Assembly: GCA_903894575.1 (NCBI GenBank)
Contig: CAITQQ010000393.1
Coordinates: 1-38,056, forward strand
From: an uncultured bacterium
GTDB taxonomy: Bacteria > Bacteroidota > Bacteroidia > Chitinophagales > Chitinophagaceae
Length of the DNA stretch: 38,056 nt
Direction: 5' to 3'
Made by a program: the position numbers and the translations under genes. How positions within the stretch are numbered: position 1 is the stretch's first letter; every line of letters begins with the position of its first letter. The notes under the pieces are model-generated. The model searched no databases and was not told where the DNA came from. It worked only from the letters and a program-made list of their open reading frames with translations. Shown one piece after another: positions 390 to 31,283 of the stretch.

Positions 390-404
390 TGTTCCACGTG
401 GACA
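390..404. promoter_or_regulatory. Degenerate parS-like site (one base deleted in the right half)
   Basis: TGTTCCACGTGG-ACA at the equivalent position of the second repeat unit. Confidence 0.5.
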
Positions 405-774: not shown

Positions 775-790
775 TGTTCCACGTGGAACA
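775..790. promoter_or_regulatory. parS: parS-like ParB-binding site (perfect 16-bp palindrome)
   Basis: TGTTCCACGTGGAACA, identical to the site at 3-18. Confidence 0.8.
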
Positions 791-862
791 TATGCATTAC
801 ACCACTACACACCCCAAAACGCTTAAACCCTCTAATCCCCTAAACCATCCAACACCTAAACC

Positions 863-1291: not shown

Positions 1292-1357
1292 AGTAAGAGA
1301 ATAAAAATACAAGAAATCCACCGAAGGGAAGTAGCTTTGCAACTCGTAGAATTGAAC

Positions 1358-1585: not shown

Positions 1586-1612
1586 TCATAATTTATTGTC
1601 TTTCAATCACTT

Positions 1613-2182: not shown

Positions 2183-2188
2183 ATGATT

Positions 2189-3433: not shown

Positions 3434-3436
3434 GCG

Positions 3437-4381: not shown

Positions 4382-4442
4382 AATAAAAAATATTGTTGGG
4401 TAAAAATAACGAACATAATTTTGATTTATAAATAGAAATTGC

Positions 4443-5468: not shown

Positions 5469-5542
5469 TGTAGATCATTAGGAGGAACAAGCGGGGTCAT
5501 TCATTTGAGAACTAGATCAGGATAAGTTTGAAAAAACTTACA

Positions 5543-6406: not shown

Positions 6407-7823
6407 GCGTACGTGGAAAAGCTATAACATCACGGATATTGGTCATTCCAGTAACAAAAAGAACCATTCTTTCAAAACCTAGACCAAAACCTGCGTGAGG
6501 AACCGTACCGAATCTTCTTGTGTCAAGGTACCACCACAATTCTTCTTCAGCAATGTGCATATCCTTCATGCGTTGCGTAAGTAAAGCAAGCCGTTCTTCC
6601 CTTTGGGAACCACCAACAATCTCTCCAATGCCTGGGGCCAAAATATCCATGGCGGCAACAGTTTTGCCGTCATCATTTTGGCGCATGTAAAAGGCTTTGA
6701 TGTCTTTGGGGTAATTGGTAACAATGACCGGTTTTTTGAAATGTTTTTCAACCAGGTACCTTTCGTGTTCACTTTGCATATCGATACCCCATTTCACCTC
6801 ATATTGAAATTTCTTTTTCTTATAGGCTGGGGAATTCAATAAAATATCAATGGCCTCTGTATATGTGATCCGCTCAAAGTCATTGTCTAGTACAAACCTT
6901 AGTTTATCGATCAATCCCATTTCACTGCGCTTGTCAGCAGGGAGTTGTTTTTCCTCTTCTGCAAGGCGCTGATCAAGGAAAACAAGGTCTTCAATGTTGT
7001 GTTGGATCACAAAACCAATGATATACTTGATGAAAGATTCGGCCAGGTTCATGTTGTCTTCCAAATCGGAAAAAGCCATTTCTGGTTCAATCATCCAAAA
7101 TTCTGCCAAGTGTCTGGTAGTATTGGAGTTCTCCGCCCTGAACGTAGGCCCGAAAGTATATATTTCACCAAATGCAGTAGCTCCAAGTTCACCCTCTAGT
7201 TGCCCACTGACAGTGAGGTTGGTACTGCGTCCAAAAAAATCTTCTTTAAAATCAATGGCTCCATTTTCATCGCGTGGCGGATTGTCAAATGGAAGTGTTG
7301 TAACGCGAAACATTTCACCAGCTCCCTCAGCATCACTTGCTGTAACGATGGGAGTATGCATGTACAGGAATCCTTTTTCATGAAAAAACTGATGTATCGC
7401 AAATGCAAGTGCGTGCCTTACCCTAAAAACAGATCCAAATGTATTGGTTCTGAATCTCAGGTGCGCTTTTTCACGCAGGAATTCAAGACTATGCTTTTTG
7501 GGTTGAAGAGGATATTTTTCAGCATCAGAGTCACCAAGCACCTCAATGGCAGTAGCAACAACTTCGACAGATTGGCCCTTACCCTGAGAGGCAACAAGTT
7601 CACCTGTAATCTTGAGAGAGGCGCTCGTCGTGATTCTTTTTAAAAGTTCGTCATCAAATTGACCAAGGGGGGCAACAACCTGTATGTTGGTATTGGTCGA
7701 TCCGTCATTCAAGGCGATGAACTGATTATTTCTAAAAGTGCGGACCCAACCCATTACAATTATGTCTTTCTGACCAGCCGGTTGAAGCAAAAGCTCTTTT
7801 ATCTTGATTCGCTTGTTAAACAT
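6387..7823 (-). CDS. asnS: Asparaginyl-tRNA synthetase
   Basis: Class II aaRS motifs ([53 protein letters not shown]) and N-terminal OB fold ([11 protein letters not shown]). Confidence 0.95.
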
Positions 7824-8038
7824 ATGCTTGTTTTCTTGCGGCAAAGGTAATAAATAGGAAGTAGCGAGGGCCCGGCATCGGGGATAAGATGGGCAAATAT
7901 TTTTTTTAAAATTGAAAAAGCGTTAATATTGCTAACGGAAACAGGGGCATTATCAGGAAAGCATCGCCCCATACATCGTTTTCAATTCACAAACATCATC
8001 ATCATCTCGATTCATTCCCAAAAGGGTCTATTACTCAA

Positions 8039-9727
8039 ATGACATCTATGTACGACATTCTACAGCTGAACGACATGCTTGTTCCAGAACTGCTCGATAT
8101 TGCAGAACAACTCAAAATTACGGGTGTAAAGAAATTGGAAAAACAGGATCTGATCTATAAAATTTTAGACAAACAAGCAATCCTGAACAGTGGTACAAAA
8201 CCGGAGGCTAAAGATGGTGTAATAAAAAAGAAAAGAATTGTAAAAACAACTACATCAAACAGTACAGAAGAGGCTATCGTTGAAAATGAAGACGCCAGTC
8301 CTGAAGCACTCGAGATGTCTGAAGCGCCAAAACTGGAGAAAAAAGTAGCCAAAAGAGGAAGGCCTCCAGCTGTACCTGTGGTGGAAGAAAAGGAAGCCGA
8401 ACCAGGGGTTTCAAAAGAAGTTAAACAACCGATCAAAAAGATAAAACCTATACCAGCAAAAGCAGTTGTGGCCCAAGTGGAACAACAAGAAGCTGTTACT
8501 GCAGAAAATCAAAATGGTGAAGAGCCACAATCACCAGAAAACGTGATTGCGCAGGATGAAGCCCCAACCAAGCAACTCTTCATTAAAAAAGAACCCGTAT
8601 TCAATGTAGAGTTTGATGGAGCCATTGCGGGTGAAGGTGTGTTGGAAATGATGCCAGATGGTTATGGATTTTTGAGGAGCAGCGATTATAACTATCTTTC
8701 TTCACCAGATGATGTTTATGTTTCACCTTCTCAAATAAAACTATTCGGCATAAAAACTGGTGATACCATCAGTGGAAGTGTTAGACCACCCAAAGAAGGA
8801 GAAAAATATTTTGCGCTCTATAAAGTAGATACGGTGAACGGTCGTTTGCCGGATGAAGTTCGCGACAGGGTACCCTTTGATTACCTGACACCCTTGTTTC
8901 CTTTTGAAAAATTCAATCTTTATACAAAACAAGACAATTATTCTACAAGGATGATGGACCTGTTTACCCCGCTGGGTAAAGGTCAAAGAGGATTGATTGT
9001 TGCTCAACCAAAGGTTGGTAAAACAATGTTGCTGAAAGAGGTGGCCAATGCCATTGCAACCAATCACCCGGAGTGTTATTTGATGGTTGTTTTGATTGAT
9101 GAGCGTCCGGAAGAGGTTACAGATATGGAGCGCAGCGTAAGGGCAGAGGTGCTCGCATCAACCTTTGATGAGCCTGCCGAAAAACATGTGAAAGTATCTG
9201 CCATGGCGCTTCAAAAAGCAAAGCGACTGGTTGAGTGTGGTCATGATGTAGTGATTTTACTTGACTCCATCACGAGATTGGCAAGGGCACACAATACCGT
9301 TGCCCCTTCCTCAGGAAAAGTATTGTCTGGTGGTGTGGAAGCCAACGCCATGCAAAAACCGAAACAATTTTTTGGTGCAGCAAGAAAAGTTGAAAATGGT
9401 GGTTCGCTGACCATACTCGCAACTGCATTGATTGACACAGGAAGCAAAATGGATGAAGTCATCTTTGAAGAATTCAAAGGAACCGGTAACATGGAGTTGG
9501 CACTGGATAGGAGACTTGCAAACAAACGAATGTTCCCTGCTATCGACTTGACCGCTTCTTCAACAAGGCGCGAAGACCTGTTGCTTGATAAGGACGTGCT
9601 GCAAAGAATGTGGATCTTGCGCAATCATATTGCAGACATGAACAGTGAAGAAGCCATGAACCTTTTGCTCAAACAAATGAAGGGTACGAGAGACAACCAA
9701 GAGTTTCTTGCAACCATGAACAAGTGA
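8039..9727 (+). CDS. rho: Transcription termination factor Rho with long low-complexity insertion
   Basis: [17 protein letters not shown]-loop, [32 protein letters not shown]. Rho N-terminal SAP-like domain followed by a ~130 aa charged linker. Confidence 0.95.
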
Positions 9728-9742
9728 TTTTCTTAAAAAGAT

Positions 9743-10804
9743 ATGGGAATAGAAAAAATTCCGGTTGAACAATTTGTTCAACTTTCACAAATCCATACTG
9801 TCATTGATGTAAGAAGCAATGCAGAGTATTCCCATGCACATATCCCGGGTGCTTCTTCTATTCCACTTTTTAATGATGAAGAAAGGGCCGTTGTTGGAAC
9901 GATCTATAAGCAAGAATCTAGAGAAGAAGCCATAAAAAAGGGTCTTGATTTGTTTGGGCCCAAGATGAAAGAAATGCTCTTAACGGCAGAGCGTCTGATC
10001 AAAGAAAAAAATCCAGAAGATAAAACCGTGTTGGTGCATTGCTGGAGAGGAGGAATGAGAAGTGCTGCAGTTGCCTGGTTGCTTGATCTATATGGGTTCA
10101 AGGTATACACACTTGTTGGGGGTTACAAAACATTCAGAAATTGGGTACTCAATGAATTGGGTAAAAAGCATGAGTTTCAAATCTTGGGAGGAAATACCGG
10201 ATCGGGCAAAACCATTGTCTTGCATTCCTTGAAATCAATGAATGAGGCTGTAGTAGATCTCGAAGGTCTTGCGGGTCACAAAGGGTCAGCTTTTGGGAAT
10301 ATTGGTTTACCCAAACAACCCAGCCAGGAGATGTTTGAAAACAAACTTGCCATTGCCATTAAAATAGAAAAAGAAAAATATCCAGATACAAAAATTTGGC
10401 TTGAAGATGAAAGCCAGCGTATAGGAACTGTAAACATTCCACAAACCATGTGGACACACATGCGAAAATGCGAAATTGTATTCTTAAATATTCCCTTCGG
10501 TTCAAGATTAAATTATTTGGTAGATACATATGGAATACTTGATTGGGTGGCACTCAAAGATGCTATAGTTCGGATCCAAAAAAGGCTTGGTGGTCTTGAA
10601 ACCAAAACAGCCATTGCTGCGCTTGAAGAAAAGAACATGCATGGATGTTTTGAGGTATTGTTAAAATATTATGACAAGCAGTACAGCAAAGGATTACAAA
10701 ACAGAGAAGAACCTAAACCAGAAATATTTGTCGTTGATACGGAGGTGGTAAACGATATGGATAATGCTTTAAAAATCATACAGCAGAAAAATGGAAGAAA
10801 TTAA
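9743..10804 (+). CDS. mnmH: tRNA 2-selenouridine synthase (rhodanese + P-loop)
   Basis: VLVHCWRGGMRS rhodanese Cys loop, GGNTGSGKT P-loop, LEDESQRIG. Confidence 0.93.
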   Translation: MGIEKIPVEQFVQLSQIHTVIDVRSNAEYSHAHIPGASSIPLFNDEERAVVGTIYKQESREEAIKKGLDLFGPKMKEMLLTAERLIKEKNPEDKTVLVHCWRGGMRSAAVAWLLDLYGFKVYTLVGGYKTFRNWVLNELGKKHEFQILGGNTGSGKTIVLHSLKSMNEAVVDLEGLAGHKGSAFGNIGLPKQPSQEMFENKLAIAIKIEKEKYPDTKIWLEDESQRIGTVNIPQTMWTHMRKCEIVFLNIPFGSRLNYLVDTYGILDWVALKDAIVRIQKRLGGLETKTAIAALEEKNMHGCFEVLLKYYDKQYSKGLQNREEPKPEIFVVDTEVVNDMDNALKIIQQKNGRN

Positions 10805-11843
10805 ACTGACACAATACTCACATGGCGCAGGCTGTGGTTGTAAAATATCGCCCAAAATATTGGATGAAATTTTGTCTTCAAATTTCAGCATGCCAGACAA
10901 TGACCGTTTGATTGTTGGGAACCATAGCAAAGATGATGCTGCTGTATATGATTTACAGAATGGAAAAGCTTTGATTTCAACAACAGACTTTTTCATGCCA
11001 ATTGTTGATGATCCCTATAATTTTGGAAGAATAGCCTCAGCCAATGCGATCAGTGATGTGTATGCGATGGGTGGGGATCCGATCATGGCTATAGCCATCC
11101 TGGGATGGCCAATCAACCTGTTGTCACCCCAGGTGGCTAAAAAAGTTATAGAAGGAAGCAAAAGTATTTGTCTGGAAGCAGGTATTCCCTTGGCAGGAGG
11201 ACACAGCATTGATTCACCTGAACCCATTTTTGGACTGGCTGTCAATGGATTGGTTGATATCAAAAACCTGAAAAAAAACAATACGGCGCAAAAAGGGGAT
11301 TTGTTGTTGTTGACCAAAAAAATCGGTGTTGGGATTTTGACAACTGCAGAAAAAAAGAACTTACTGAAAGAGGGTGATAAAACATTGGCTGCAGACCAAA
11401 TGATGCAGCTGAACAAGATAGGTGCACTCTTGGGAAAAATAGAAGGCGTTCATGCAATGACAGATGTTACGGGTTTTGGACTCTTGGGGCATCTCATTGA
11501 AATGGCTGAAGGAAGCGGCTTATCTGCAAGAATAAATTTCAATACAGTTCCTTTGATATCGGAACGATTGATTGAATATGTTGAATTGGGATCGGTTCCT
11601 GGGGGCACGAATAGAAACTGGGCGAGTTATGGACACAGGGTTCATTTTAATGATGGTCATAACCAAGGCTTACAAAAAAACATATTGGCCGATCCTCAAA
11701 CCAGTGGTGGTTTGTTGATTGCAGTAGATAAAGATGCTGTTCAGGATGTAATTGAACTACTGAAGCAAAATGGTTTATCGGAGAGGACCACACCAATAGG
11801 GGAAATTACAGCATCGGGAGATTTTGCAATAACTGTTTATTGA
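10791..11843 (+). CDS. selD: Selenide, water dikinase (Cys-containing form)
   Basis: HGAGCGCKISP active-site loop, DDAAVYDL, TTDFFMPIVDDPYNFGRIASANAISDVYAMGG, ADPQTSGGLL. Confidence 0.95.
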   Translation: MEEIKLTQYSHGAGCGCKISPKILDEILSSNFSMPDNDRLIVGNHSKDDAAVYDLQNGKALISTTDFFMPIVDDPYNFGRIASANAISDVYAMGGDPIMAIAILGWPINLLSPQVAKKVIEGSKSICLEAGIPLAGGHSIDSPEPIFGLAVNGLVDIKNLKKNNTAQKGDLLLLTKKIGVGILTTAEKKNLLKEGDKTLAADQMMQLNKIGALLGKIEGVHAMTDVTGFGLLGHLIEMAEGSGLSARINFNTVPLISERLIEYVELGSVPGGTNRNWASYGHRVHFNDGHNQGLQKNILADPQTSGGLLIAVDKDAVQDVIELLKQNGLSERTTPIGEITASGDFAITVY

Positions 11844-11859
11844 TAAAAGTATCCTATAA

Positions 11860-12087
11860 TCAAAGTGCATCTATAGATTTAGAAAGCTCGAGGTCTTTGT
11901 TTGTAACAATATTTCCTGCATCGTGTGTTGAAAGCCAGACTTCAACCGTGTTCCATGTATTTATCCAGGTAGGGTGATGGTTGGCCTTTTCTGCAAGAAT
12001 AGCAACCTTGGTCATGAAGGCAAATGCTTCAATAAAATTGTTGAATACAAATTTTCTATAGAGTTGATTGTCTTTTTCTTCCCACAT
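11860..12087 (-). CDS. Pterin-4a-carbinolamine dehydratase
   Basis: EKANHHPTWINTWNTVEVWLSTHDAGNIVTNKDLELSKSID is the classic PCD/PhhB signature. Confidence 0.92.
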   Translation of the reverse strand: MWEEKDNQLYRKFVFNNFIEAFAFMTKVAILAEKANHHPTWINTWNTVEVWLSTHDAGNIVTNKDLELSKSIDAL

Positions 12088-12090
12088 AAA

Positions 12091-12525
12091 TTATCGTTGT
12101 AAATTATCTTTTGATTTTATTTTTTCATGTGCCACTTCTGTTACAAGCTGCACACCAGGTATAGACCTCAATTGTTGTTGTAGTTGCTGAAAATATAATT
12201 CATCTTGGAATGAATCCCTGACCAACCAAATAAAATCAAGATGCTGAAGTTCTGGCAAAAGGAATTCTCCTTCGTGTTTATTGCTATATAGAAAATGTTC
12301 TTTTGCAGAAACAGGATGCAAGAATTCATAAACAGTAAATGAATAAGATCTTCTGTTTTTTTCCATCCCAATCTGCAAATCGGGGGCAGTCTGAAAATCA
12401 ATTTGTAATGCCTTTTCGATGTGCCAACAAAAATGATAGTTTTTCAGGGTACAAACAATGCCAAGTATTCTTGTATCCTCGAAAAAATGATCAGACATTT
12501 TATCGTCATCAAGCCTGAGTTTCAT
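12091..12525 (-). CDS. IPExxxVDY family protein (small Bacteroidota protein of unknown function)
   Basis: Family-like pattern: LGIVCTLKNYHFCWHIEKALQIDF... and FIWLVRD near the C-terminus. Size and order match the family; no database check made. Confidence 0.6.
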   Translation of the reverse strand: MKLRLDDDKMSDHFFEDTRILGIVCTLKNYHFCWHIEKALQIDFQTAPDLQIGMEKNRRSYSFTVYEFLHPVSAKEHFLYSNKHEGEFLLPELQHLDFIWLVRDSFQDELYFQQLQQQLRSIPGVQLVTEVAHEKIKSKDNLQR

Positions 12526-14165
12526 CAGAAAACAATTTCAAAACTGATTTCTTTTTCTCCCCTCATCACAATCGTAGTCGTTTTGTCACCTTTCTTGAAT
12601 TTTGAAAGGGCCTGCATATAAGACTCTACAGAAGATGTTTTGTGTTCACCCAATTGTTTGACAATGTCACCCGTAAGAATTCCTGCTTTTTTTGCAGGAC
12701 GATTATCAGATACACCATCTACGCGAACACCAGAGCCGGTATAAGAATAATCGGGCATGATCCCCATACTTACAGAGAATCGGGCTGATGTAGAAGTTTG
12801 TTGTTCTCTGGTTTTGGTGAAAACAAGTTTTTGTTCCTGTTTGTCAGCTTCAATCATTTGTTGAATAAAACGAATGATTTTTAACATACCAACATAGTTG
12901 ATTTTATCAGCGTCGTCACTTGGTTTGTGGTAATCAGAATGAAGACCGGTGAAAAAGAAAAGAACAGGAATATCTTTTCGATAAAAAGATGTATGATCGC
13001 TTGGCCCAGTTCCACTTGAATCAACCTTGATGGAAAAATCTTTTTTCTTCACAGCGTCCATCATTGGTTTCCAGGATGGAGATGTACCATATCCACCAAC
13101 AGTGATTGTTTTTGTACTGTCATTCATTCTACCAACCATATCCATGTTGATCATGTAATTGACATTGCTCAAAGAGATGGTGGGATTTTCTACAAAATAT
13201 TTAGATCCATTGAGACCCAGTTCTTCTGCCGAAAACGCAATTAATAGATAGTTATACTGTTTTGCTTTGCTGTTTTTCAAAAGAAAAGCAAGTTCAATCA
13301 TAGATGACGTTCCACTGGCATTATCATCAGCACCATTGTGTATGCCAAGATCACCAGTTCTAATCATAGAATTTCCATCTTCACCGTATCCGAGGTGATC
13401 AAAGTGGGCTCCAATTACGATGGTGAGGGGTGCGTTATTATCCAAATAACCAACCACATTTCTTGCTTTTCTTATTTTTGGGCTGATGGATAGCTTGGCT
13501 GAAATCTGAAAAGAGGAGGAAACATCAGACAAATGTGCCTTTTGAGCGTTGGTATTGATGTAGGCAGCAGGAATTGGTGTGGGTTCCGATCTGTCTTTGG
13601 GATCAAACCGGATTTTATCATCCAATGAGGATGAGTTGAAAAATAAAACTGCAGAAGCACCTTTATCCTTTGCTTTTGTTATTTTATCATTCAACAAATT
13701 AGCAACGTCGAAATGGGGATTATCCTTGTTTTCCTGGATAGATTCTGCAATATCAATCATCCATGGTTGCCCTTTTTCATTTAACGAAGGAGAAGTTTCT
13801 GCATTAAAATTGGCTGATGGTGAGTTGGAGAGGGGGAAAAAATCTACTCCTGGCTTGAGTATCTTTCCATTTACTTTTAATTCATTTCCTTCAGATAATT
13901 CTTTACCGTCATTTATGGAAAAATGCTGAAAAAAGGTAGCGTTATCCCCTTTTGGGATAAGGCCAATTTCTTTGAATTTAGCAGCGATAAATTCAGATGC
14001 CAAAATTTCACCAGGATCGCCGGCTCTTCTGCCTTTTAACTCGTCAGAAGAAAGGTAACCAACTTGCTGTTGCAGGTATTGAACAATCTCTTTATCCGCT
14101 TTTTTAAGTTTTTGGGCTGATGCAAACTGAACCAAGAGAAGCAGTGGGATTAAAATCCTGAACAT
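12525..14165 (-). CDS. Secreted M28-family metallopeptidase with PA insertion and C-terminal PDZ domain
   Basis: IVIGAHFDHLGYG, HNGADDNASGTSSMIEL, FSAEELGLNGSKYF, SDHTSFYRKDIPVLFFFTG. C-terminal PDZ-like GVSDNRPAKKAGILTGDIVKQLG. N-terminal signal peptide. Confidence 0.92.
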   Translation of the reverse strand: MFRILIPLLLLVQFASAQKLKKADKEIVQYLQQQVGYLSSDELKGRRAGDPGEILASEFIAAKFKEIGLIPKGDNATFFQHFSINDGKELSEGNELKVNGKILKPGVDFFPLSNSPSANFNAETSPSLNEKGQPWMIDIAESIQENKDNPHFDVANLLNDKITKAKDKGASAVLFFNSSSLDDKIRFDPKDRSEPTPIPAAYINTNAQKAHLSDVSSSFQISAKLSISPKIRKARNVVGYLDNNAPLTIVIGAHFDHLGYGEDGNSMIRTGDLGIHNGADDNASGTSSMIELAFLLKNSKAKQYNYLLIAFSAEELGLNGSKYFVENPTISLSNVNYMINMDMVGRMNDSTKTITVGGYGTSPSWKPMMDAVKKKDFSIKVDSSGTGPSDHTSFYRKDIPVLFFFTGLHSDYHKPSDDADKINYVGMLKIIRFIQQMIEADKQEQKLVFTKTREQQTSTSARFSVSMGIMPDYSYTGSGVRVDGVSDNRPAKKAGILTGDIVKQLGEHKTSSVESYMQALSKFKKGDKTTTIVMRGEKEISFEIVF

Positions 14166-14272
14166 GTGGCGTATTTTATTGCAAATTTAGTGTAGTTGGA
14201 CGGATGATTTCGAATATATGAGTAAAGATGTGCTTTTTACTGTTTTCGTAAAAAGAAGGCTACAATTGGATG

Positions 14273-14280
14273 TACCTTTG
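14273..14280 (+). promoter_or_regulatory. Candidate Bacteroidota -7 element upstream of feoB
   Basis: tacctttg matches TAnnTTTG, 10 nt before the feoB ATG; no convincing -33 element. Confidence 0.35.
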
Positions 14281-14290
14281 GTAACCATAA

Positions 14291-16408
14291 ATGATAGGAA
14301 ACAAGCCTAATATAGCCCTGATCGGTAATCCAAACAGTGGAAAAAGTTCACTATTCAACCTGTTGACAGGGTTGAACCAAAAAGTTGGCAATTTCCCAGG
14401 AGTAACGGTAGAAAAAAAAGAAGGTGGCTTCAAATTACCCAACAAGCAAGAATGCATTGTGCTTGATTTGCCAGGAACCTATAGTTTGTATCCAAGGAGA
14501 AGCGATGAGTGGGTTTCCTATAAGCAGTTGATGACACCCAAAAAGGAGGAATCAATTGATTTAGCAATTGTTGTAGCTGATGCCAGTAACCTGAGAAGAA
14601 ATCTACTCTATGTGTCCCAGGTCATTGATCTTAAAATACCTGTAGTAGTTGCTTTGACAATGGTTGATCTTGCCAAAAAAAGAGGTATTAAAATTGATGT
14701 TGATTGCTTAGCAAGAGAGATGCAGGTACCTGTTGTCTTGGTTAATGCAAGAACTGGCAAAGGACTTGAGCAATTAAAGTCGACGGTTACTCAAATGCTA
14801 AACATAGAAGCTAGCGGACAGGATTTTTTTCCAATTGAAGAATTGGCAAAGGGTGCAATCGGTGAAATGCGGGAATTGATGCCCAATTTGGGGAATTATG
14901 CTGCCATTCATCATCTGATCAACCATGAATCATTTGAATTGAGTTCTTCAATACAAGTGAAAATTGAAGCAATAGAAGAAAAATATAAATTCAATCATAC
15001 CAAAATACAGGCAGAAGATATTCAACTACGGTATCAAAAAATAAGACAGGTAATGCTCAAATCTGTTGAGGAAGAGAGCATTGAAAAAAGAAAAATGTTC
15101 TCTGAAAGGCTTGATCATTTTTTCTTACACAGAACATGGGGTTATCTGATCATGGGGGTGGTTTTATTTATTCTATTTCAGAGTGTATTTTGGGTAGCTG
15201 AATATCCAATGAATTTGATAGAATCTGGAGTTGGAATCTTGGGGGGCTGGTTGGGATCAATTTTACCAGAGGGTTGGATAGCAGACATTGTTGTCAATGG
15301 AATCTTGGCTGGATTGGGAGGAATTCTGGTTTTTGTTCCACAGATCATGATATTGTTTGGTTTGATTACTTTACTGGAAGACACTGGATATATGGCCAGG
15401 ATCAGCTTCCTTTCAGACAGGATCATGAGAAGGGTTGGATTGAATGGTAAAAGTGTGATGCCCATGATTGGCGGATTTGCATGTGCCGTTCCAGCCATCA
15501 TGAGTGCAAGAAATATTGAAAATAAAAAAGAAAGATTGCTTACAATCATGGTCACACCTTTCATGAGTTGTAGTGCAAGGTTACCAGTATTTACTATTTT
15601 AGCTTCTATGGTTGTACCCAATAAAAATATATTGGGTGTGGTGAGTTTACAGGGATTGGTATTGATGGGATTATATGTGTTGGGAATAGTGATAGCCTTG
15701 CTTGTTTCTTATGTGATGAATTTGTTTATCAAGATCAAAGAAAAAAGTTTTTTTATACTTGAATTACCTGTTTACAGACAACCAAGATGGAAAAACATTG
15801 TATACACCATGATTGAAAAGGCCAAAGTATTTGTATTTGATGCTGGTAAGGTAATCATGATTATTTCTTTGGTATTGTGGGCGTTCAGTTCATTTGGCCC
15901 AACAGAAAAAAGAAAAAATATTGAAGAAAAATATGCAGGATTGATCAAGAATGATCCTGAAAATATAAATAAATACCAAACAGAAAAATCATCTGCACTA
16001 TTGGAAAATTCTTATGCAGGTATTATGGGCCGCAGTATAGAACCGATAATCCGTCCATTGGGATATGATTGGAAAATTGGCATTGCTTTGATCACATCAT
16101 TTGCAGCCAGAGAAGTATTTGTTGGTACAATGGCAACATTGTATAGCGTAGGTGATGCTGCTGATGAAAATAGTGAAACCCTGCGGAATAAGATGCATGC
16201 AGCAAAAAGGAGTGATGGAACCTTGGTATATACCACTGCTACTGGTTATTCACTCTTGATTTTTTATCTTTTGGCTATGCAATGCATGAGTACATTGGCG
16301 ATTGTAAAAAAGGAAACAGGTTCCTGGAAATGGCCCATCATACAATTGATTTACATGACAGGATTGGCTTATTTACTGAGTTTTATTGCATATCAGCTCT
16401 TGAGTTGA
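14291..16408 (+). CDS. feoB: Ferrous iron transport protein B
   Basis: GNPNSGKSSLFNLLTG, DLPGTYSLYP, GGFACAVPAIMSARNIENKKERLLTIMVTPFMSCSARLPVF. Confidence 0.97.
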   Translation: MIGNKPNIALIGNPNSGKSSLFNLLTGLNQKVGNFPGVTVEKKEGGFKLPNKQECIVLDLPGTYSLYPRRSDEWVSYKQLMTPKKEESIDLAIVVADASNLRRNLLYVSQVIDLKIPVVVALTMVDLAKKRGIKIDVDCLAREMQVPVVLVNARTGKGLEQLKSTVTQMLNIEASGQDFFPIEELAKGAIGEMRELMPNLGNYAAIHHLINHESFELSSSIQVKIEAIEEKYKFNHTKIQAEDIQLRYQKIRQVMLKSVEEESIEKRKMFSERLDHFFLHRTWGYLIMGVVLFILFQSVFWVAEYPMNLIESGVGILGGWLGSILPEGWIADIVVNGILAGLGGILVFVPQIMILFGLITLLEDTGYMARISFLSDRIMRRVGLNGKSVMPMIGGFACAVPAIMSARNIENKKERLLTIMVTPFMSCSARLPVFTILASMVVPNKNILGVVSLQGLVLMGLYVLGIVIALLVSYVMNLFIKIKEKSFFILELPVYRQPRWKNIVYTMIEKAKVFVFDAGKVIMIISLVLWAFSSFGPTEKRKNIEEKYAGLIKNDPENINKYQTEKSSALLENSYAGIMGRSIEPIIRPLGYDWKIGIALITSFAAREVFVGTMATLYSVGDAADENSETLRNKMHAAKRSDGTLVYTTATGYSLLIFYLLAMQCMSTLAIVKKETGSWKWPIIQLIYMTGLAYLLSFIAYQLLS

Positions 16409-17020
16409 TTAAATCACTTCTAGTTTTTTTAGTTCATTGATCAGGAGATCTGGAGTTTGAAAATGTATAGACTGAATACCACAGGCTTCTGCTGCTTTGA
16501 TGTTTCGAAGGTTATCATCAATAAAAACCGTTTCAGAAGCATCAAGACCAAATCTGGTTAAGGTTAACTCATAAATTTCAGGAAATGGTTTTCGCGTATT
16601 TTCTTCTCCAGAAACAATTCTACCATCAAACCAATGAAGAAAATCAAATAATTCTAAAGCCCGAGGAAAGGTTTCAGCACTCCAGTTGGTGAGAGCGTAT
16701 ATACGGTGTTTATTATTTGATTTAAGCTGCTTTAGAACCTCAACAGTGCCCTCAATGGGTCCATTGAGCATCTCTTCCCACCTTTGATAAAAAGCGAGAA
16801 TATAATCACTCTTATCTGGGTATAATGATAATAGTAAATCATTGGCTTCTTTGATGCTTCTTCCACCATCCTGCTCTTCGTTCCAGGACATCGTACAAAT
16901 GGTTTCTAAGAATTCCTTTCTCTCATTGTCATCTGTAATGATCTTTTTATACATGTACTCAGGATTCCAGTCGATCAATACTCCACCCAGATCAAAAATG
17001 ATATTCTTAATTTGTTTCAT
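16409..17020 (-). CDS. HAD-superfamily hydrolase (HAD-IA)
   Basis: IIFDLGGVLIDWNP, ALTNWS, TRKPFPEIYE, VFIDDNLRNIKAAEACGIQSIHF. Confidence 0.92.
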   Translation of the reverse strand: MKQIKNIIFDLGGVLIDWNPEYMYKKIITDDNERKEFLETICTMSWNEEQDGGRSIKEANDLLLSLYPDKSDYILAFYQRWEEMLNGPIEGTVEVLKQLKSNNKHRIYALTNWSAETFPRALELFDFLHWFDGRIVSGEENTRKPFPEIYELTLTRFGLDASETVFIDDNLRNIKAAEACGIQSIHFQTPDLLINELKKLEVI

Positions 17021-17404
17021 CAGCTGAAAATTACAGAATATTCAATTGCTTTCATCAGGTATTTTTGATTGTTAATATCCCTTGTAGTATTTATAATTAT
17101 CTATTATTTATAAAAGACACTATTACTATTAGGGTTGTGGAAATGTTGGAAACTATTTTTTATCAATTTTTATTCTATCTATAATCACATGAATTAACAT
17201 CAATTCACAATTATACACATGACGAATATCATTACTGATACTGATTCAAATGAATCCTATTAACATTAAAAAAATAATTATTGATAATTTTCAACAGCAA
17301 GAAAAAATTAAAAATCCTGTGGATAAACCAAGGGTAAATTGTTGCAAAAAATCAACCAATCTAGAAATTCAATAAAAACCCCCAACTTGTTAAAAACAAT
17401 CCAC

Positions 17405-17425
17405 AAAATCATTTTTAAAATTGGG
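17405..17425 (+). repeat. 21-bp direct repeat copy 1 in oriC-like region
   Basis: AAAATCATTTTTAAAATTGGG, identical to 17508-17528. Confidence 0.95.
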
Positions 17426-17507
17426 CAGTAATCCACATAAAAACCAGGATATCAACAAGGGTATGTGGAAAACCAAAAATTTTCCCTGAACAGCCAGAAA
17501 ACAGCCG

Positions 17508-17528
17508 AAAATCATTTTTAAAATTGGG
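17508..17528 (+). repeat. 21-bp direct repeat copy 2 in oriC-like region
   Basis: AAAATCATTTTTAAAATTGGG, identical to 17405-17425. Confidence 0.95.
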
Positions 17529-17572
17529 GTTCCGCGTCGTTTTCCACAATTTGTTAATAACCATTTTTACCC

Positions 17573-17580
17573 TATTTTTG
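17573..17580 (+). promoter_or_regulatory. Candidate Bacteroidota -7 element upstream of the SurA/PpiD-like gene
   Basis: tatttttg matches TAnnTTTG, 26 nt before the ATG at 17607. Confidence 0.35.
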
Positions 17581-17606
17581 CCAACTCTTATAATAATATA
17601 TATAGT

Positions 17607-19730
17607 ATGTCAATTATTCAGAAAATTAGGGACAAGGCAGCAGTATTGCTTACCACAATGATCGCGATCAGCTTGATCGGCTTTTTGGTTCAGGATGCGT
17701 TTGTTGGCAAGGGCGGAAGCATGTTTGACGGACAGGCCACCACAGCGGGATCCATCAATGGAAAAGACATTGAATTGGTTGATTTCAGCAAGAAGGTGAA
17801 CATGGTGGAACAAAACTACCGTTCTCAGGGCATGCAAACCAATGAAATGATGACCCAAACAATTGTTGAAAATGTTTGGAACTCATATGTGCAGGAAGAA
17901 ATGATCAATGGAGAAGCCGCGAAACTTGGATTGGCTGTTACGCCTAAAGAGCTCGGAGCTGTATTGTTTTCTGATGATGCTCCCCAGGAGTTCAAGCAAA
18001 TGTTTGCTGATAAAACCACCGGAGCCTATGATGTGAATGCTGCGAGAAACTGGTTTACCAATGTAAAAAAGAGTTCAAAACCCGAAGATGCCTTGAATAT
18101 AGAAGAGCAACTGATCAAGCCGATTGGCATCAACCTGCTCTCTCAGAAATATACCTCTCTGATTACACAAGGTTCTTATGTTCCCAAGTGGATGTTGGAG
18201 AAGATGGCAGCTGACAACGCCTCTTTTGCTTCAATTTCATTTGTAAGTGTTCCTTATACCACTATCGCAGACAGCACCATTAAAGTGAGCGACAGCGAAA
18301 TCAGTGATTACGTATCAAAGCATAAAGATGAATTCAAACAGGAGCATGTAAAAAGCATCGCTTACGTTTCTTTTAGCGCAAACCCAACACCACAGGACTC
18401 TTCAAGGGTTTACAATCAGCTCAATGAGTTGAAAGCCGCATTCTATGCAGCTCCTGATGCAAAAAGCTTTGTTACAAGAAACAATACTTCGCTTCCATTT
18501 TTTGATGGATTTGCCTTGAAGTCTAAGCTGCAGATGGGCGCAAAGGATACCATCATCTCATTGGCTGTTGGTGCTGTGGCTGGCCCATACCTAGACGGAG
18601 GAAGCTATGTGATCGCGAAAAAAATACAAACAAAATCATTGCCTGATTCTGTAAAGTGCAGGCATATCCTCGTAGGAATTGTTGATCCGCAAACCGGTCA
18701 ACAAAGGCGCAGCGACAGCGCAGCCAAAAAGAGTATTGACAGCATTTATGCAGTGATCAAATCTGGCGGAAATTTTGGAGCTTTGGCGGCGGCACTCAGC
18801 GATGACCAGGGAAGCAAGGCCAAAGGTGGTGAATATGATTTCTCTTCTGTTGACATGAACCTGGCAAAAGAATTTGCAGACTTCATCTTCAACAAACCCA
18901 AGGGAAGCATGGAAGTGGTGAAAACAGAGTTTGGTTACCATATCATTGAAGTGTTGAACCAGAAAAATTTCGAAGAGGCATACAAGGTTGCCTATCTCGC
19001 CAAACCCATTGTTGCCAGCGAAGAAACAGACGCCTCAGCATCTTCTGCTGCAACTCAATTTGTAGGAAGCAGCAGGGATCAAAAGTCTTTTGATGAAACC
19101 GTTACAAAGATGAAGATCAACAAGCTGACCGCCGAGAACATCAAGGAGCTTGATTACAGCGCTGGTCCACTTTCTTCAAGGGCCATCGTAAAATGGATAT
19201 TTGAAAACAAAACAGGAACTGTTTCAGAACCATTCGACCTCAAAGACCAATATGTGGTAGCCATGGTTACCAATGAAATCGAGGAGGGTGTTCAACCGGC
19301 TTCAGTTGCAAGGGTATTGGTAGAACCAACCCTCAGGAACAAGAAAAAGGCAGAAATGGTAGCCCAAAAGGCTGGATCCGAGAAAAACCTGGATAAATTG
19401 GCGGCACTGCTTGGTGGAACTACCGGCAAAACAGACACGGTCAGGTTTGCAGATCCTTTTGTTCCCAACCTTGGTTCAGAAACAAAAGTAATTGGTGCAG
19501 CGTTTTACAAAAACAACTTGTCTAATACATCAGACGTGATTGACGGTCAAAATGGTGTATACTATATTAAAGTGAACCAGGTTGGTGCCCTTCCTTCCTC
19601 AGCAATCGATTTTGTTGGTCAAAAGAAGGCGCTTGAGTCACAAATGAAGCAATTCGCAGGATACAGTACGATGGAATCTTTGAAAAAATCAATGAAAATC
19701 GTTGATAAAAGAAGGGACGCAGGATACTGA
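17607..19730 (+). CDS. SurA N-terminal/parvulin peptidyl-prolyl isomerase (PpiD-like periplasmic foldase)
   Basis: N-terminal TM (KAAVLLTTMIAISLIGFLVQDAF), VKCRHILVGI... GGNFGALAAALSDDQGSKAKGGEYDF...EFGYHIIEVL parvulin signature. Confidence 0.93.
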   Translation: MSIIQKIRDKAAVLLTTMIAISLIGFLVQDAFVGKGGSMFDGQATTAGSINGKDIELVDFSKKVNMVEQNYRSQGMQTNEMMTQTIVENVWNSYVQEEMINGEAAKLGLAVTPKELGAVLFSDDAPQEFKQMFADKTTGAYDVNAARNWFTNVKKSSKPEDALNIEEQLIKPIGINLLSQKYTSLITQGSYVPKWMLEKMAADNASFASISFVSVPYTTIADSTIKVSDSEISDYVSKHKDEFKQEHVKSIAYVSFSANPTPQDSSRVYNQLNELKAAFYAAPDAKSFVTRNNTSLPFFDGFALKSKLQMGAKDTIISLAVGAVAGPYLDGGSYVIAKKIQTKSLPDSVKCRHILVGIVDPQTGQQRRSDSAAKKSIDSIYAVIKSGGNFGALAAALSDDQGSKAKGGEYDFSSVDMNLAKEFADFIFNKPKGSMEVVKTEFGYHIIEVLNQKNFEEAYKVAYLAKPIVASEETDASASSAATQFVGSSRDQKSFDETVTKMKINKLTAENIKELDYSAGPLSSRAIVKWIFENKTGTVSEPFDLKDQYVVAMVTNEIEEGVQPASVARVLVEPTLRNKKKAEMVAQKAGSEKNLDKLAALLGGTTGKTDTVRFADPFVPNLGSETKVIGAAFYKNNLSNTSDVIDGQNGVYYIKVNQVGALPSSAIDFVGQKKALESQMKQFAGYSTMESLKKSMKIVDKRRDAGY

Positions 19731-21888: not shown

Positions 21889-23001
21889 TTAGTTAGACAT
21901 CAAAGGCATCGCAAGCATCAGCAAATCCTCATTATCATCTTGTTCTACGGGCTTGATCAAACCAGCTTTTGTTGGGGTAGACAATTCCACACGAACCTCA
22001 TCGCTATCGGTGCTTCCAAGCATTTCAATCAGGAAGCGGGCATTGAAGGAAATGGTGATGTCTTCTCCATCGTATTGGCAAGACATTCTTTCGTTTCCTT
22101 CGAAGCTGAAGTCGACATCCTGGGCAAGCAATTGGAGTTCGCTGCCAGAAATGCTCAAGGTTACCAGGTTGGTGCTCTTGTTGCTGAATATGCTTACGCG
22201 GCGAAGGGCTGACTGAAAATCCTGGCGAGAAATCGTCATTCTGTAAGGATTGTCTGCAGGAATCACCACTTTGTAATCAGGAAAACGGGCGTCCAACAAG
22301 CGGCAAGAAAGTTCAACCGTGCCATGTGTAACAAACAAGTGGTTGTTGTTGTATGATACGGAAATCTCATCTTCATTGTCGGGCAATGAGCTCTTTAAAA
22401 GATTCAAAGGTTTTTTGGGAACGATGAAGTTGTCTGTTCTTGGACACTGTACGTCTTTCAGTTTGTAGCGCACAAGCCTGTGTGCATCGGTGGCAACAGC
22501 GGTGATGCCGTTTTTCTCCAACTCAAAAAACACACCGGTCATGGCAGGACGAAGGTCATCGTTGCTGACCGCAAAAATTGATTTGTTGATGGCTGTCAAC
22601 AACGCATGGCTGGTCATGGTAAAGGCAGAGGTTTCGTCTGCAGGAGGTTCTTTTGGAAAATTGTCCGGGTTCTCTCCCATGACCTTGTATTTACCGTTGT
22701 CGCTGGTGATTTCGATACCAAAATTCTTGTCGATATCAAAAGTCAGCGGCTGGTTCGGAAGGTTCTTCAGAGAGTCCATCAGGATCTTTGCCGGAATACA
22801 AACGCGGCCACTGTCCTTGGCTTCAATGTCAAGGTGGATTTTCATCACGGTTTCCAGGTCGGTAGCAACAACTGTCAGTTTGTTGGTTTCAATCTCAAAA
22901 AGGAAATCTTCCAGGATCGGCAAAACATTGTTTGAACCGATGACGCCATTGATCTGCTGAAGCTGTTTGAGAAGGGCCGATGAGGAGACGATAAATTTCA
23001 T
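21889..23001 (-). CDS. dnaN: DNA polymerase III beta subunit (sliding clamp)
   Basis: MKFIVSSSALLKQLQQINGVIGSNNVLPILEDFLFEI..., ATDAHRLVRY, DARFPDYKVVIP, C-terminal LMLAMPLM. Confidence 0.97.
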   Translation of the reverse strand: MKFIVSSSALLKQLQQINGVIGSNNVLPILEDFLFEIETNKLTVVATDLETVMKIHLDIEAKDSGRVCIPAKILMDSLKNLPNQPLTFDIDKNFGIEITSDNGKYKVMGENPDNFPKEPPADETSAFTMTSHALLTAINKSIFAVSNDDLRPAMTGVFFELEKNGITAVATDAHRLVRYKLKDVQCPRTDNFIVPKKPLNLLKSSLPDNEDEISVSYNNNHLFVTHGTVELSCRLLDARFPDYKVVIPADNPYRMTISRQDFQSALRRVSIFSNKSTNLVTLSISGSELQLLAQDVDFSFEGNERMSCQYDGEDITISFNARFLIEMLGSTDSDEVRVELSTPTKAGLIKPVEQDDNEDLLMLAMPLMSN

Positions 23002-24540: not shown

Positions 24541-27500
24541 ATGCGGCTGACCACCTGCTTCATTTTGCTGTTGCAAACATTTTTTTGTTTAGCCCAACCC
24601 CCATCTGATTATAAGTTTCAAAGCATCAGCATAGCCCAAGGGCTTTCCCAAAGTTCTGCCTACTCGGTAATTCAGGACCATTTGGGTTATATCTGGGCAG
24701 GAACACAGGGGGGAATGAATCGGTATGACGGATATGGCGTTAAAAAATTTGAGCCAATCTCTGCAGATAGTGCTTCCATTTCAATTGGCTGGAGAACAGC
24801 ATCAATGGAAGATGATAAGGGAAACATATGGACGGGTTCTAACCTCGGAACAATATCCATGTATGACCGAAGAGAAGATCGTTGGATCAACTACAAACCG
24901 GGCTTTTCAGAAGAATTCAGAAAAAAATTTCCCAATTATCAATCCACCAATCTTGGGCAAGTTGTTCAATTGAACTTGGATACACTCCGACAAAAGATTT
25001 ATATATCCACTTTTCTTACAGGCCTGTATATTTTAGACCTCAAAACCGGCAAGTTCAGTCAACACTGGTTTCCAGAGGCAATAGACAGAAATGGAAGATG
25101 GAAGGACAATACATTTATATCTGCACTTGCAGTTGGCAAGGACAATCTGCTGATCAGTTCTGGAAATGGATTGGTTGTTTTTGATAAAAACACAGAGCGA
25201 TTCACCAAGAGAATTTTTAAGAGCGACGATCAGGAAAAGCAGATGTTCTTTCTTCAGTCAATTAAGTTGAACGATGAGGAATGTATTTTGGCCTCTGACA
25301 GGGGGATTGTTAAATACAATCATGTAACAGGTGATAGTATAATGTACACAAATGACAAGAAAAACCCACATTCAATTTCAGTGGGTCAAGTAAGGTCGGT
25401 TTGCCTGAGCAGGGATAAGAAAACGTTATGGGCAGGAATTGATGGATTGGGAATAGAGATACTAGACATAAAAACCGGAAAGGTTACTCACATAAATGCA
25501 AAAACAGCTCCCAATAGCGGAGTTTCCGGAGATCTTTACTTTAATATTATTGAAGATAAAGAGGGAAACTTTTGGGCGGGATCATCTAATACGGGCATAC
25601 TGAAGTATGATCCATCCATGAAAAAAATGAATTTTGTACTCAAAGACGAGCCATCCGAGATGCCATTGGGCTTTTCAACTGTATGGGGTACATTTATTGA
25701 TAACGAAGATAATTTGTGGGTTGGCAGTTTAGACGCCGGCGGCGGCATAACAATGGTGGATAGAAAAAACAAAAAATCCACCCGTTTTCTTAACGACCCC
25801 CAATCACTTGAGTCAAGAAAATGGGTGTTTGGTCAAGACAATACCGGTGCTATTTATGTGATGGGAACATCAAAGGCAGGAAGGATATTGTACAAAAAAG
25901 CAAAAGGAGAGAAAAGCTTTGCTCAGTTGCTCAATCTGACAAAACAATATCTTGAAGGAAAACTTCCCGCTGCTATTGGACAGTCATTTTTTTATTTAAC
26001 TCAAACCGGAGACTTTATAACAGGTGGGGATACAGCCATTTTGGTTTCAGATAAACAGGGAAAGCTTCAGATGAAAGCCTATACTCCCTTGTTAAAAATA
26101 AAAGATAGAATCAAGTATATTTTTAACAAGGGAAAAGATAAAACATATATTCTCACCAACAAACATTTCTGGAAATGGAATGAGTCAACGGGGACAATAA
26201 CCAACCTTATCCCTTGGACAACACTTGATCCTGTAGGATTATTGCTCATGAGTTATGCAGACATCGATGAAGAAAAAACGGTCTATTTGCCATCCTTTGG
26301 ATACGGACTGGTTACAATCGATCTCAAGGCAAAAAAGCTAACAATATTGAACCAAAAAAATGGCATTCCCAGCCAATATCTTTATGATGTTACCATAGAT
26401 AAAAACGGAATGGTCTGGTCCTCCAGCAATTTTGGAATCATAAGATATGATCCCCAAAGAAAAAAGTTTAAGAGTTTTTTTAAAAATGACGGGGCTCAGG
26501 ATTATGAATACGACGCGCTTAGTTTTTCTAAAAGTAACAATGGAGAAATTGCCTTTGGTGGTTTATTTGGTGCAAATTATTTTATTCCAGAAAACATAAA
26601 AGACAATACCACCCCCCCTAGTGTGATTATTCAATCAATTACCAAGATGGGAAAATTGTTGAATATTGAAGACAATGCTTATGATAAAGAGATACAGATA
26701 AAATACAATGAAAACCAGTTGGGCCTGGAATTCATTGCCTTTAACTATAAAAGCCCCGAGTTTAACCAATACGCATATATGATGGAGGGCTACGACCGTG
26801 ACTGGAACTACTCCGGAGGTCGACACTTTGCAACCTATACCAACCTTCCATCAGGAAAATACAAATTTCGGGTAAAGGCAAGCAACAATGATGGAGTTTG
26901 GAACGAAGAAGGGGCAACGCTGATGATCAGGGTTCATCCAGCTCCTTGGTTTTCGTGGTGGGCGTTTTTGATTTATGTTTCAATACTTGGTTTCTCTGTA
27001 AGGTTATTTGTAAAATACAGAGAGAACATGCAGAAGAGGAAAATGGATAACGAGAGGAAAAACTCTGAACTTCAAGCAGCAAAGGATTTTCAACAGAGCA
27101 TGCTCCCAAAAGTTTTGCCATCGAGAAACGACCTTGAAATATCTACTTTCCTGAGGTCTTCTACAGAAATAGGAGGTGATTATTATGACTTTTTTGAGCA
27201 GCAAAACGGTGATCTTTATGTTGTTTGTGGTGACGCTACGGGCCATGGTATTATTTCTGGTATGATGGTTTCTATCGCAAAAGCCGGACTTAACGGAATC
27301 AGCGCGCTTTCTCCTAGTGAAATTTTAAAACAGTTGAACAAGGTTATCAAAAAAGTTGACCTTGGAACAATGCGAATGAGTCTCAATATTATTCGCATAA
27401 AACAAGAAACTGTTGAGATGAGCTCTGCAGCAATGCCACCAATTTATCATTATGTATCAGCTACGGGGAAGACGGAAGAGATACAAATGAGTGGATTACC

Positions 27501-27771
27501 ACTTGGGGGACTAAAACGTGAGCTGTTTGAAATCGAGGATAGGGATTTTGCTCCAGGGGATGCATTTGTAATGTTATCAGATGGTTTACCAGAAGCTCCT
27601 AACGCTAGTGCAGAATTATTTGATTACAAACGGGTTCAGGAAATAATTACAAAAACTGGATCCCAAGATGCTGAATCTATTAAAAATGAATTGGTTGCGG
27701 CTGTTGATTTGTGGTTATCTGGAGAAAACAATCCTGATGACATTACAATTATCGTAATCAAGAAAAAATAA
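24541..27771 (+). CDS. Beta-propeller (Reg_prop) / Y_Y_Y / TM / SpoIIE-type PP2C phosphatase sensor 1
   Basis: Signal peptide; repeats such as VIQDHLGYIWAGTQGGMNRYDG and IIEDKEGNFWAGSSNTGILKYD; Y_Y_Y region (YAYMMEGYDRDWNYSGGRHFATYTNLPSGKYKFRVKASN); TM WWAFLIYVSILGFSVRLFV; PP2C with GGDYYDF, GDATGHG, LSDGLPEA, NPDDITI. Confidence 0.93.
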   Translation: MRLTTCFILLLQTFFCLAQPPSDYKFQSISIAQGLSQSSAYSVIQDHLGYIWAGTQGGMNRYDGYGVKKFEPISADSASISIGWRTASMEDDKGNIWTGSNLGTISMYDRREDRWINYKPGFSEEFRKKFPNYQSTNLGQVVQLNLDTLRQKIYISTFLTGLYILDLKTGKFSQHWFPEAIDRNGRWKDNTFISALAVGKDNLLISSGNGLVVFDKNTERFTKRIFKSDDQEKQMFFLQSIKLNDEECILASDRGIVKYNHVTGDSIMYTNDKKNPHSISVGQVRSVCLSRDKKTLWAGIDGLGIEILDIKTGKVTHINAKTAPNSGVSGDLYFNIIEDKEGNFWAGSSNTGILKYDPSMKKMNFVLKDEPSEMPLGFSTVWGTFIDNEDNLWVGSLDAGGGITMVDRKNKKSTRFLNDPQSLESRKWVFGQDNTGAIYVMGTSKAGRILYKKAKGEKSFAQLLNLTKQYLEGKLPAAIGQSFFYLTQTGDFITGGDTAILVSDKQGKLQMKAYTPLLKIKDRIKYIFNKGKDKTYILTNKHFWKWNESTGTITNLIPWTTLDPVGLLLMSYADIDEEKTVYLPSFGYGLVTIDLKAKKLTILNQKNGIPSQYLYDVTIDKNGMVWSSSNFGIIRYDPQRKKFKSFFKNDGAQDYEYDALSFSKSNNGEIAFGGLFGANYFIPENIKDNTTPPSVIIQSITKMGKLLNIEDNAYDKEIQIKYNENQLGLEFIAFNYKSPEFNQYAYMMEGYDRDWNYSGGRHFATYTNLPSGKYKFRVKASNNDGVWNEEGATLMIRVHPAPWFSWWAFLIYVSILGFSVRLFVKYRENMQKRKMDNERKNSELQAAKDFQQSMLPKVLPSRNDLEISTFLRSSTEIGGDYYDFFEQQNGDLYVVCGDATGHGIISGMMVSIAKAGLNGISALSPSEILKQLNKVIKKVDLGTMRMSLNIIRIKQETVEMSSAAMPPIYHYVSATGKTEEIQMSGLPLGGLKRELFEIEDRDFAPGDAFVMLSDGLPEAPNASAELFDYKRVQEIITKTGSQDAESIKNELVAAVDLWLSGENNPDDITIIVIKKK

Positions 27772-27780
27772 ATCAATAAG

Positions 27781-30700
27781 ATGAAAAAGGCGCATATCAT
27801 ACTGTTGATCATTTCTATTTGTTGTCGAAATGTTGCTATCGCACAAATCAACCCAATGGAAACTGGAAATTATTTTATAAAAAACTATTCCCGGGATTTT
27901 TTAAATGGTAGGGGCGTCAACTGGACTGTTGCCCAAGACACCAATGGTATTGTGCTGGTAGGCAATCACTTGAATGGAATTGCATTATATGATGGAAAGC
28001 GTGTCAAAAAAATTAATCTAAAGGGTTTACCATACGGAGAAGAGGGCAGAAAAATCCGGACGGATTCAAAAGGAAATATTTACTTGGCTTCAAACTTCAA
28101 TTTTGGATATCTAAAGAAAAATTACGCAGATCAATATGAGTATGTTTCTTTGTCTAATTCATTGGCAGAAAAAGATAAGGTTTCCAGTCGTGTTTGGAGT
28201 TCTGCCATTCTAAAAGACACTATTTTTTTTCAAACAGATAGTGCTGTTTACAAATACCGCGATAATAAACTTCTCAAAGTATGGCATTTTAACCCCAGCA
28301 TACACATCTTGCACAAGGTTGGCAACAGGGTTTTTGTCCGTCAATGGGGAGTCGGCTTGCTTGAGCTGCTTGGCAATGAGTTTAGGTTAATAAACGGTTC
28401 GGCCTTGTGGGCAAACAACAGGGTGGAGTCTATGTATCAACTGGATAACGGAAATATTCTAATGGCATCCAGAAATATAGGTTTCTGGTTGCTCAAAAAA
28501 GATGGGAGTTTTGAAAAAACAAAAACCCCCCAACTTGATAAGTTGATTATTGAGGGAGAGGTATACCTTAGCAATACAGTCTTAAGCAATGGATTAATAG
28601 CGGTTGGTACTTTTAAATATGGTCTCATTTTGATTGACCAAAATCTTGAATTAAAGAGAATTGTAAATACTTCAATTGGATTGGGATCAAACTATGTGGC
28701 AGATATATTTGAAGACAGAACTAATGATATTTGGGTTGCGAGTAATGGCGCATCTGTAATTACCACTGACCCATCACTCACTTACTTCACAACGACAAAT
28801 GGTTTATTTGGGGCTGTTGGTGGAATGTTAAGGATGGGAGGTCGGTTTTTTGTAAAAACGGGTACCGACTTGTATGAGTTGATACCACCCAAGGATAATT
28901 TTGGTTCTGTTGGTTTTAAGCCCCAGGGAGTAGATGAGTCTGGATCTGATTTGTCATTATTTGATGATATGTTGATAACAACAAATAATTACAACATAAA
29001 ATACACAAAAGCCAGCAAGACTTCTATTATCAAGACTCAATATTATACAAGCGCATCACGACAAAGTAAACTGAACAAAAAACTCCTTTTTTCATCAGGC
29101 AAAGGTTTGACATTGCATGAATATGATAAAGGGCGCTGGAACGAAAAGACAATCCCCAATAACATACAAACCTATATCAGTGGTTTTGCTGAACCAGAGC
29201 CGGGATTTCTCATTTTAAATACAACGAATGGTCCTGTTTCATACAAGTATAGCGTTGATGGAACAGGAAGCTTTGATGAAATGGTTGTAGATAAAAGATT
29301 TGGAAAAAACAAAGCCATTCGATTTTTTCAAGCTGGTACAAGCAAATATTACGGCTATGATTCTTCATATCATTTTTATGCCGTGAATTTTAAAAGCAAC
29401 AGGTTAACATATGCGGGCTGGTCTTTAGACAGTCTTGTAAAAGATGGGGTATTTTCAATTACCTATAACAGTGAGTCAGGAGCCAACTGGTTTTATACAC
29501 TCAACGGATTGTACACCCTTAATATTGGAGAAAAAAACCAGCCCAGTATAACAAAATTTCCATTTGAGAAGGTTAACATGTCTGAGTTATCTGCAAGAAT
29601 ATTTGCAGAAGGAAAGGGAGACAACGAGGTTGTGTGGTTGGGGTCTCAGGATGAAAAATTATTCAGATACATTCCATCCTTGGCGTTGAAAAAGAAAAAT
29701 TCAACCTTTAGGGCCTTGATAACTGCAGTTTATTTCCAGGATTCGGCAATTGCTTTAAGAAACCAAGAAATTCCATTTCGTCAAAATCAACTAACTTTTG
29801 AAGTTGCATATCCCGTCTTTGGAAATGAAGAGAAAATTCTTTTTAGCTATTGGCTGGAGGGTCAAGACCAGGGGTGGGGAGCTTTTACAAGCGATTCAAA
29901 AAAAGAATACACCAATCTCAGGGAAGGGGATTATACATTACACGTAAGGGCAATGGATGCGAGCGGTCTAATCGCTCAGCAAAACACCATGTCTTTTACA
30001 ATCTTACCTCCATGGTATAGAACTTGGTACGCCTATTTGGCCTATATTATGCTATTGGGTTATGGAGTATATTTATTTGGTAAATATCAGTCTCGTAAAA
30101 CAAGATTGAAGGCTGAAAATGAAAGAAGGTCTGATGAGTTGAGGGCAGCCCGAGATTTTCAGCAAAGCATGCTTCCTAAAAATATCCCAACAAGATCAGA
30201 TCTCGACATTTCTACATTTTTACGTTCTTCTACTGAGATTGGCGGTGATTATTATGATTTTTTCGAGGAAGATAATGGAGATATTTATGTTGTTTGTGGT
30301 GATGCTACGGGTCATGGTATTATATCTGGTATGATGGTCTCAATTGCCAAAGCAGGCTTGAATGGCATTAGTGTAGATTTCCCCAACAAAATATTGGGTC
30401 AATTGAATCGGGTTGTAAAAAAAGTTGATCTCGGTACAATGCGCATGAGCTTGAATATTCTTCAAGTTTCTTCTGATAAAGTATTGATGAGTTCTGCAGC
30501 AATGCCCCCAATTTATCACTATGCAGCTGCAACTGGTAAAGTTGAGGAAATACAAATGGTTGGATTACCATTAGGAGGCCTTAGAAAGGAAGAGTTTGAG
30601 TTACAAGAAAGAGTATTTGCAATCGGCGATGCATTTGTTTTATTGTCTGATGGTCTACCCGAAGCACCCAATAAACAAGGTGATCTATTCAATTATGATA

Positions 30701-30840: not shown

Positions 30841-30857
30841 AAATTAAACAATAAAAA

Positions 30858-31274: not shown

Positions 31275-31283
31275 AATAAATTT

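Follow-up and report, generated by a model that had tools for sequence, protein, structure and literature searches.

Does the 586-bp intergenic region that separates a HAD hydrolase gene from a ppiD-like PPIase gene hold the origin of chromosome replication (oriC) of an uncultured member of the Chitinophagaceae? Here, we address this question for a 3.18-Mb draft genome assembled into 432 contigs, of which contig C393 forms the window, i.e., the whole stretch of 38,056 nucleotides that was analysed. A first-pass annotation had proposed this gap as oriC from its DnaA boxes, its AT richness, dnaN about 4.3 kb to the right and parS-like sites about 16.5 kb to the left. All the features it named are present at the coordinates it gave (Table 1): the gap is non-coding and AT-rich, both perfect boxes and the 8/9 boxes at 17429, 17464 and 17540 exist, dnaN lies at the distance claimed, and the parS-like sites are two perfect palindromes 16.2 to 17 kb to the left. 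We conclude, with a probability of about 0.85, that the gap is oriC. The element that is decisive for this conclusion is a basal origin unwinding system (BUS), which lies at 17090–17153 on the minus strand and was absent from the annotation's list.

Table 1. Positions of the origin-related features and neighbouring genes in the window.
Feature	Position	Strand	Remark
parS TGTTCCACGTGGAACA, perfect palindrome	3–18		
parS TGTTCCACGTGGAACA, perfect palindrome	775–790		
HAD hydrolase gene, left neighbour of gap	16409–17020	−	
Intergenic region, proposed oriC	17021–17606		586 bp, 27% GC
AT-rich tract after trios, probable unwinding element	17087–17119	−	A/T content conserved in family alignment
Four DnaA-trios TAA TAG TAA TAG (TAATAGTAATAG)	17120–17131	−	Also the family consensus
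GC-rich spacer ACCC	17132–17135	−	4 bp
BUS-proximal DnaA box ATTTCCACA	17136–17144	−	2 mismatches
Upstream box of BUS tandem, GTTTCCAAC	17145–17153	−	Degenerate, 4 mismatches to TTATCCACA
DnaA box TTATACACA	17211–17219	+	TTATACACA or TTATGCACA at equal offset in closest relatives
DnaA box TTATCCACA	17318–17326	−	Equal BUS offset in L041, L042, L044, L045, L046
DnaA box TAATCCACA, 8/9	17429–17437	+	
DnaA box TTTTCCACA, 8/9	17464–17472	−	Equal offset in L041, L042, L044, L045
DnaA box TTTTCCACA, 8/9, just upstream of ppiD promoter	17540–17548	+	Travels with ppiD
Box-like TTATTAACA, 8/9, inverted partner of 17540 box	17552–17560	−	Conserved
ppiD promoter, Bacteroidota type	17550–17580	+	TTTG 17550–17553, TAnnTTTG 17573–17580
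ppiD-like PPIase gene (SurA_N + PpiC), right neighbour of gap	17607–19730	+	
dnaN (sliding clamp)	21889–23001	−	4.3 kb right of gap

Two other parts of the window drew our attention by eye. Tandem large proteins with SpoIIE-like phosphatase ends are encoded at 24541–33742 and are followed by anti-sigma-kinase-like, STAS-like and adenylate-cyclase/HD-like proteins; this region looks like a partner-switching signalling cluster. At 36817–37432, the minus strand carries two small, overlapping genes that resemble a HigBA/RelE-type toxin–antitoxin pair; one of them has a helix-turn-helix-like sequence.

The DnaA boxes in the gap are more numerous than expected by chance. Perfect TTATNCACA boxes start at 17211 (+) and 17318 (−), and a fourth 8/9 box at 17552 (−) adds to the three previously named. 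In 1000 dinucleotide shuffles of the gap itself, 0.05 perfect boxes were expected, and none of the shuffles reached the observed two (0/1000). Likewise, six boxes with at most one mismatch were observed versus 1.31 expected (3/1000 shuffles), and TTWTNCACA occurs four times versus 0.17 expected (0/1000). The gap is also the window's densest 586-bp stretch for boxes. Over the whole window, boxes with at most one mismatch are not enriched (45 observed versus 51 expected) and, therefore, only the cluster in the gap is informative. This lack of enrichment speaks for AT-rich boxes having clustered by chance in a long intergenic region; however, shuffles of the gap rarely reach its box counts, and the conservation of both the BUS and the BUS position across the family already contradicts chance. 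We, therefore, regard a chance cluster as extremely improbable.

Alignment of the gap with 13 related gaps revealed a conserved block at its left end, which corresponds to the BUS. On the minus strand, its elements follow each other in the order GTTTCCAAC-ATTTCCACA-ACCC-TAATAGTAATAG-TGTCTTTTATAAATAATAGATAATTATAAA, and the BUS is strongly kept among near relatives while the remainder of the gap has diverged. A BUS has been defined as a box with at most two mismatches, a spacer of at most 16 bp and at least three.A. trios, and 85% of 2070 bacterial origins were predicted to contain one (PMC8287927). In the gap, ATTTCCACA with its two mismatches is followed by the spacer ACCC, four trios with a middle A and, beside these, the AT-rich tract. 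Among 57 sequences collected with a trio–box pattern, conservation extends outside this pattern to the A/T-only tract and to the upstream tandem box, which is TTWTCCAC-like in most relatives. The degeneracy of the window's own BUS boxes, with two and four mismatches, counts against the oriC reading.

How widely is this arrangement distributed? The exact BUS pattern has one match in the source genome and one each in 55 other genomes among the 150 family genomes searched, and its reversed control gave very few matches. The resulting count of 56/150 understates the distribution and was superseded by a search with a sequence-only BUS model, R1. Because 50 sequences of the searched set were used in building R1, matches among these are expected, while the remaining matches are independent. 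R1 has a single match in the source genome (E=1.2e-12) and finds a site at E≤0.05 in 142 of the 150 family genomes. At E≤1e-3, there are 129 sites, 96 of which lie within 1.2 kb upstream of ppiD (318–1012 bp, median about 500 bp), all on the strand opposite to ppiD, and about a dozen more lie 1.5–3.5 kb upstream; ppiD is the neighbour of the BUS in most Chitinophagaceae genomes. Eleven genomes in which this distance is ∼2.7–2.9 kb rather than 0.5 kb (G052, G140, G004, G049, G093, G121, G084, G022, G028, G050 and G088) suggest an extra gene between the BUS and ppiD. In a class-wide draw, R1 matched in 20 of 149 genomes, four of which are family members, and the other matches were mostly weak. 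Thus, the BUS module as modelled is largely particular to Chitinophagaceae. In one genome of another family (L261), a BUS site adjoins ybeY-nadD with parS, and ybeY-nadD is also present at the left end of the window.

The linkage to parS is persistent. A perfect TGTTYCACGTGRAACA was found in eight complete relatives; none of them has this parS more than 17 kb from the BUS, and the spacing in the window is 16–17 kb. Outside the window, the source genome has just two more parS palindromes, both located where mnmG begins on contig C145. We also observed that parS palindromes overlap coding ends: where the mnmG frame begins (G000:C145; L281 about 1501–1601), TGTTCCACGTGGAACA encodes the peptide MFHVEH, and in L261 a parS (161–176) is at the end of ybeY. 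In four genomes, ppiD has been displaced from the BUS, by 28 kb in G023, 74 kb in G119, 105 kb in G019 and 528 kb in G068, and in all four a perfect parS is still found 3.8–8.8 kb from the BUS. In these genomes, it is parS rather than ppiD that the BUS accompanies.

The same displacements clarify the role of the box nearest to ppiD. A conserved block, TTWTCCACAnTTTGTTAATAA, lies 46 bp upstream of the ppiD start and overlaps the sequence at 17550–17580, which we assign to the ppiD promoter on the basis of TTTG/TAnnTTTG, the established Bacteroidota-type promoter consensus. In G023, box and promoter are both still at ppiD; in G119 and G068, a promoter-like sequence is kept at ppiD, without the box. 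As it has remained at ppiD in G023 despite the 28 kb that separate this gene from the BUS, the 17540 box is at least partly a ppiD-promoter element and by itself no evidence for an origin; as a candidate for the conserved core of the origin, it was ruled out. This box may let DnaA affect ppiD transcription, in that way coupling ppiD expression to DnaA. Its position beside the promoter and its behaviour in G023 are also compatible with the entire cluster being a DnaA regulatory or titration site, e.g., for controlling ppiD, instead of an origin. However, DnaA-trios that adjoin a box are recognised as elements of origin unwinding (PMC6669920, PMC8287927), the BUS follows parS rather than ppiD, and it is the sole such site in every genome with an exact match. 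A purely regulatory function of the cluster is, therefore, very unlikely.

A denser box cluster beside dnaA, which the first-pass annotation had named as an observation that would speak against its proposal, was looked for on contig C120, where dnaA of the source genome is located; dnaA has no such cluster. With the single R1 match and a dnaA region lacking a cluster, the draft assembly contains no better origin candidate, the genome-wide box search having covered TTATCCACA only. In complete relatives, dnaA is 0.4–3.0 Mb from the BUS. According to the part of a Prevotella genome paper that cites DoriC, oriC is commonly far from dnaA in Bacteroidetes (PMC4755523), and a location away from dnaA is, therefore, not surprising.

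GC skew, sampled in 20-kb stretches in complete relatives, gives a mixed picture. In G023, the change from negative to positive skew falls at the BUS (within 10 kb), and half a chromosome away the skew changes back. The same switch occurs within about 10–20 kb of the BUS in G116, G119 and G109, and near the BUS at coarser resolution in G068 and G056. Around the BUS of G005 and G144, the skew is too weak to count for or against an origin. In G087, which has an 8.4-Mb chromosome with irregular skew, it runs from positive to negative around the BUS (C1 about 6042251), opposite to what an origin gives, and this genome was dropped as support. The window itself has positive skew both left (+0.071) and right (+0.078) of the gap, with no switch there. 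Left of the gap (1–17020), third codon positions are positive for genes on both strands, and seven related loci that share the gene order of the window (L041, L045, L047, L049, L050, L052 and L054) also have a positive left flank. This counts against an origin at the gap, which predicts a negative left flank, and for this reason our confidence in the oriC reading is held at the value given above. The positive left flank could result either from rearrangement of the left block or from a start that lies further left.

We considered the second of these possibilities in two forms. In the first, replication in this genus begins left of the window, near mnmG and parS or beyond, and the BUS is auxiliary or was formerly used. 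The positive skew on both coding strands, shared by the seven related loci, agrees with rightward movement of a fork through the left block, and the additional parS sites on the mnmG contig are probably to the left. On the other hand, R1 detects no second BUS in the source genome, near relatives have kept the BUS in a gap that otherwise diverged, other genera switch skew at or near it, and the positive sign could also stem from an earlier inversion or translocation of the left block. Altogether, we find a start left of the window unlikely. In the second form, the effective start, as strand composition records it, lies 17 kb or more away from the BUS, so that the unwinding site and the bidirectional start differ, e.g., through asymmetric origin use or a second start near mnmG/parS; to this we give a low probability. 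We retain the gap as the most likely oriC, an inference that is supported by a BUS that is unique in the genome, widespread in the family and persistently linked to parS, by the switch of skew close to this BUS in most of the complete relatives examined, and by a dnaA gene without a cluster.

The elements, their order, their conservation and the parS linkage are apparent from the sequences compared; for DnaA binding, unwinding and initiation, we draw on published work in Bacillus subtilis and Helicobacter pylori. By analogy, we suggest that DnaA-ATP would bind the tandem boxes at 17136–17153 and further boxes at 17211–17472. A DnaA filament would then grow from the tandem boxes over the spacer, continue along a single strand of the DnaA-trios and open the adjoining AT-rich tract, where the helicase would be loaded. 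Subsequently, ParB at the parS sites 16–17 kb away would segregate the new origins.

The proposed origin resembles the BUS of B. subtilis oriC/incC (PMC6669920, PMC8287927) in having tandem boxes, a short GC-rich spacer, TAG/TAA trios and an AT-rich tract in equal order; however, it lies away from dnaA, upstream of ppiD on the opposite strand, and its boxes are more degenerate. As in predicted Bacteroidetes origins (DoriC; Prevotella intermedia OMA14, PMC4755523), a box cluster lies far from dnaA, with a skew switch nearby in most complete relatives, but the neighbourhood mnmG-parS-ybeY-nadD, ppiD and dnaN is specific to Chitinophagaceae, and genomes of other families rarely match the Chitinophagaceae BUS model. 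Cyanobacterial origins beside dnaN (DoriC 10.0, PMC6323995) share TTTTCCACA-type boxes and a nearby dnaN, which in the window is 4.3 kb off rather than the immediate neighbour. A partial literature search found no published Chitinophaga or Chitinophagaceae origin of this kind. Our analysis adds the exact site, the family-wide BUS consensus and its usual address upstream of ppiD, as well as evidence that the origin remains with parS when ppiD moves.

Chromosomes in Bacteroidota are often numbered from dnaA. Knowledge of the true origin is needed for growth-rate estimates from metagenome coverage, for skew analyses and for setting genome start positions. The natural cases in which the origin has been separated from its neighbour gene ppiD show the BUS remaining with parS. 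In Chitinophagaceae, many of whose genomes come from uncultured members, the BUS provides an origin marker that is both precise and searchable.
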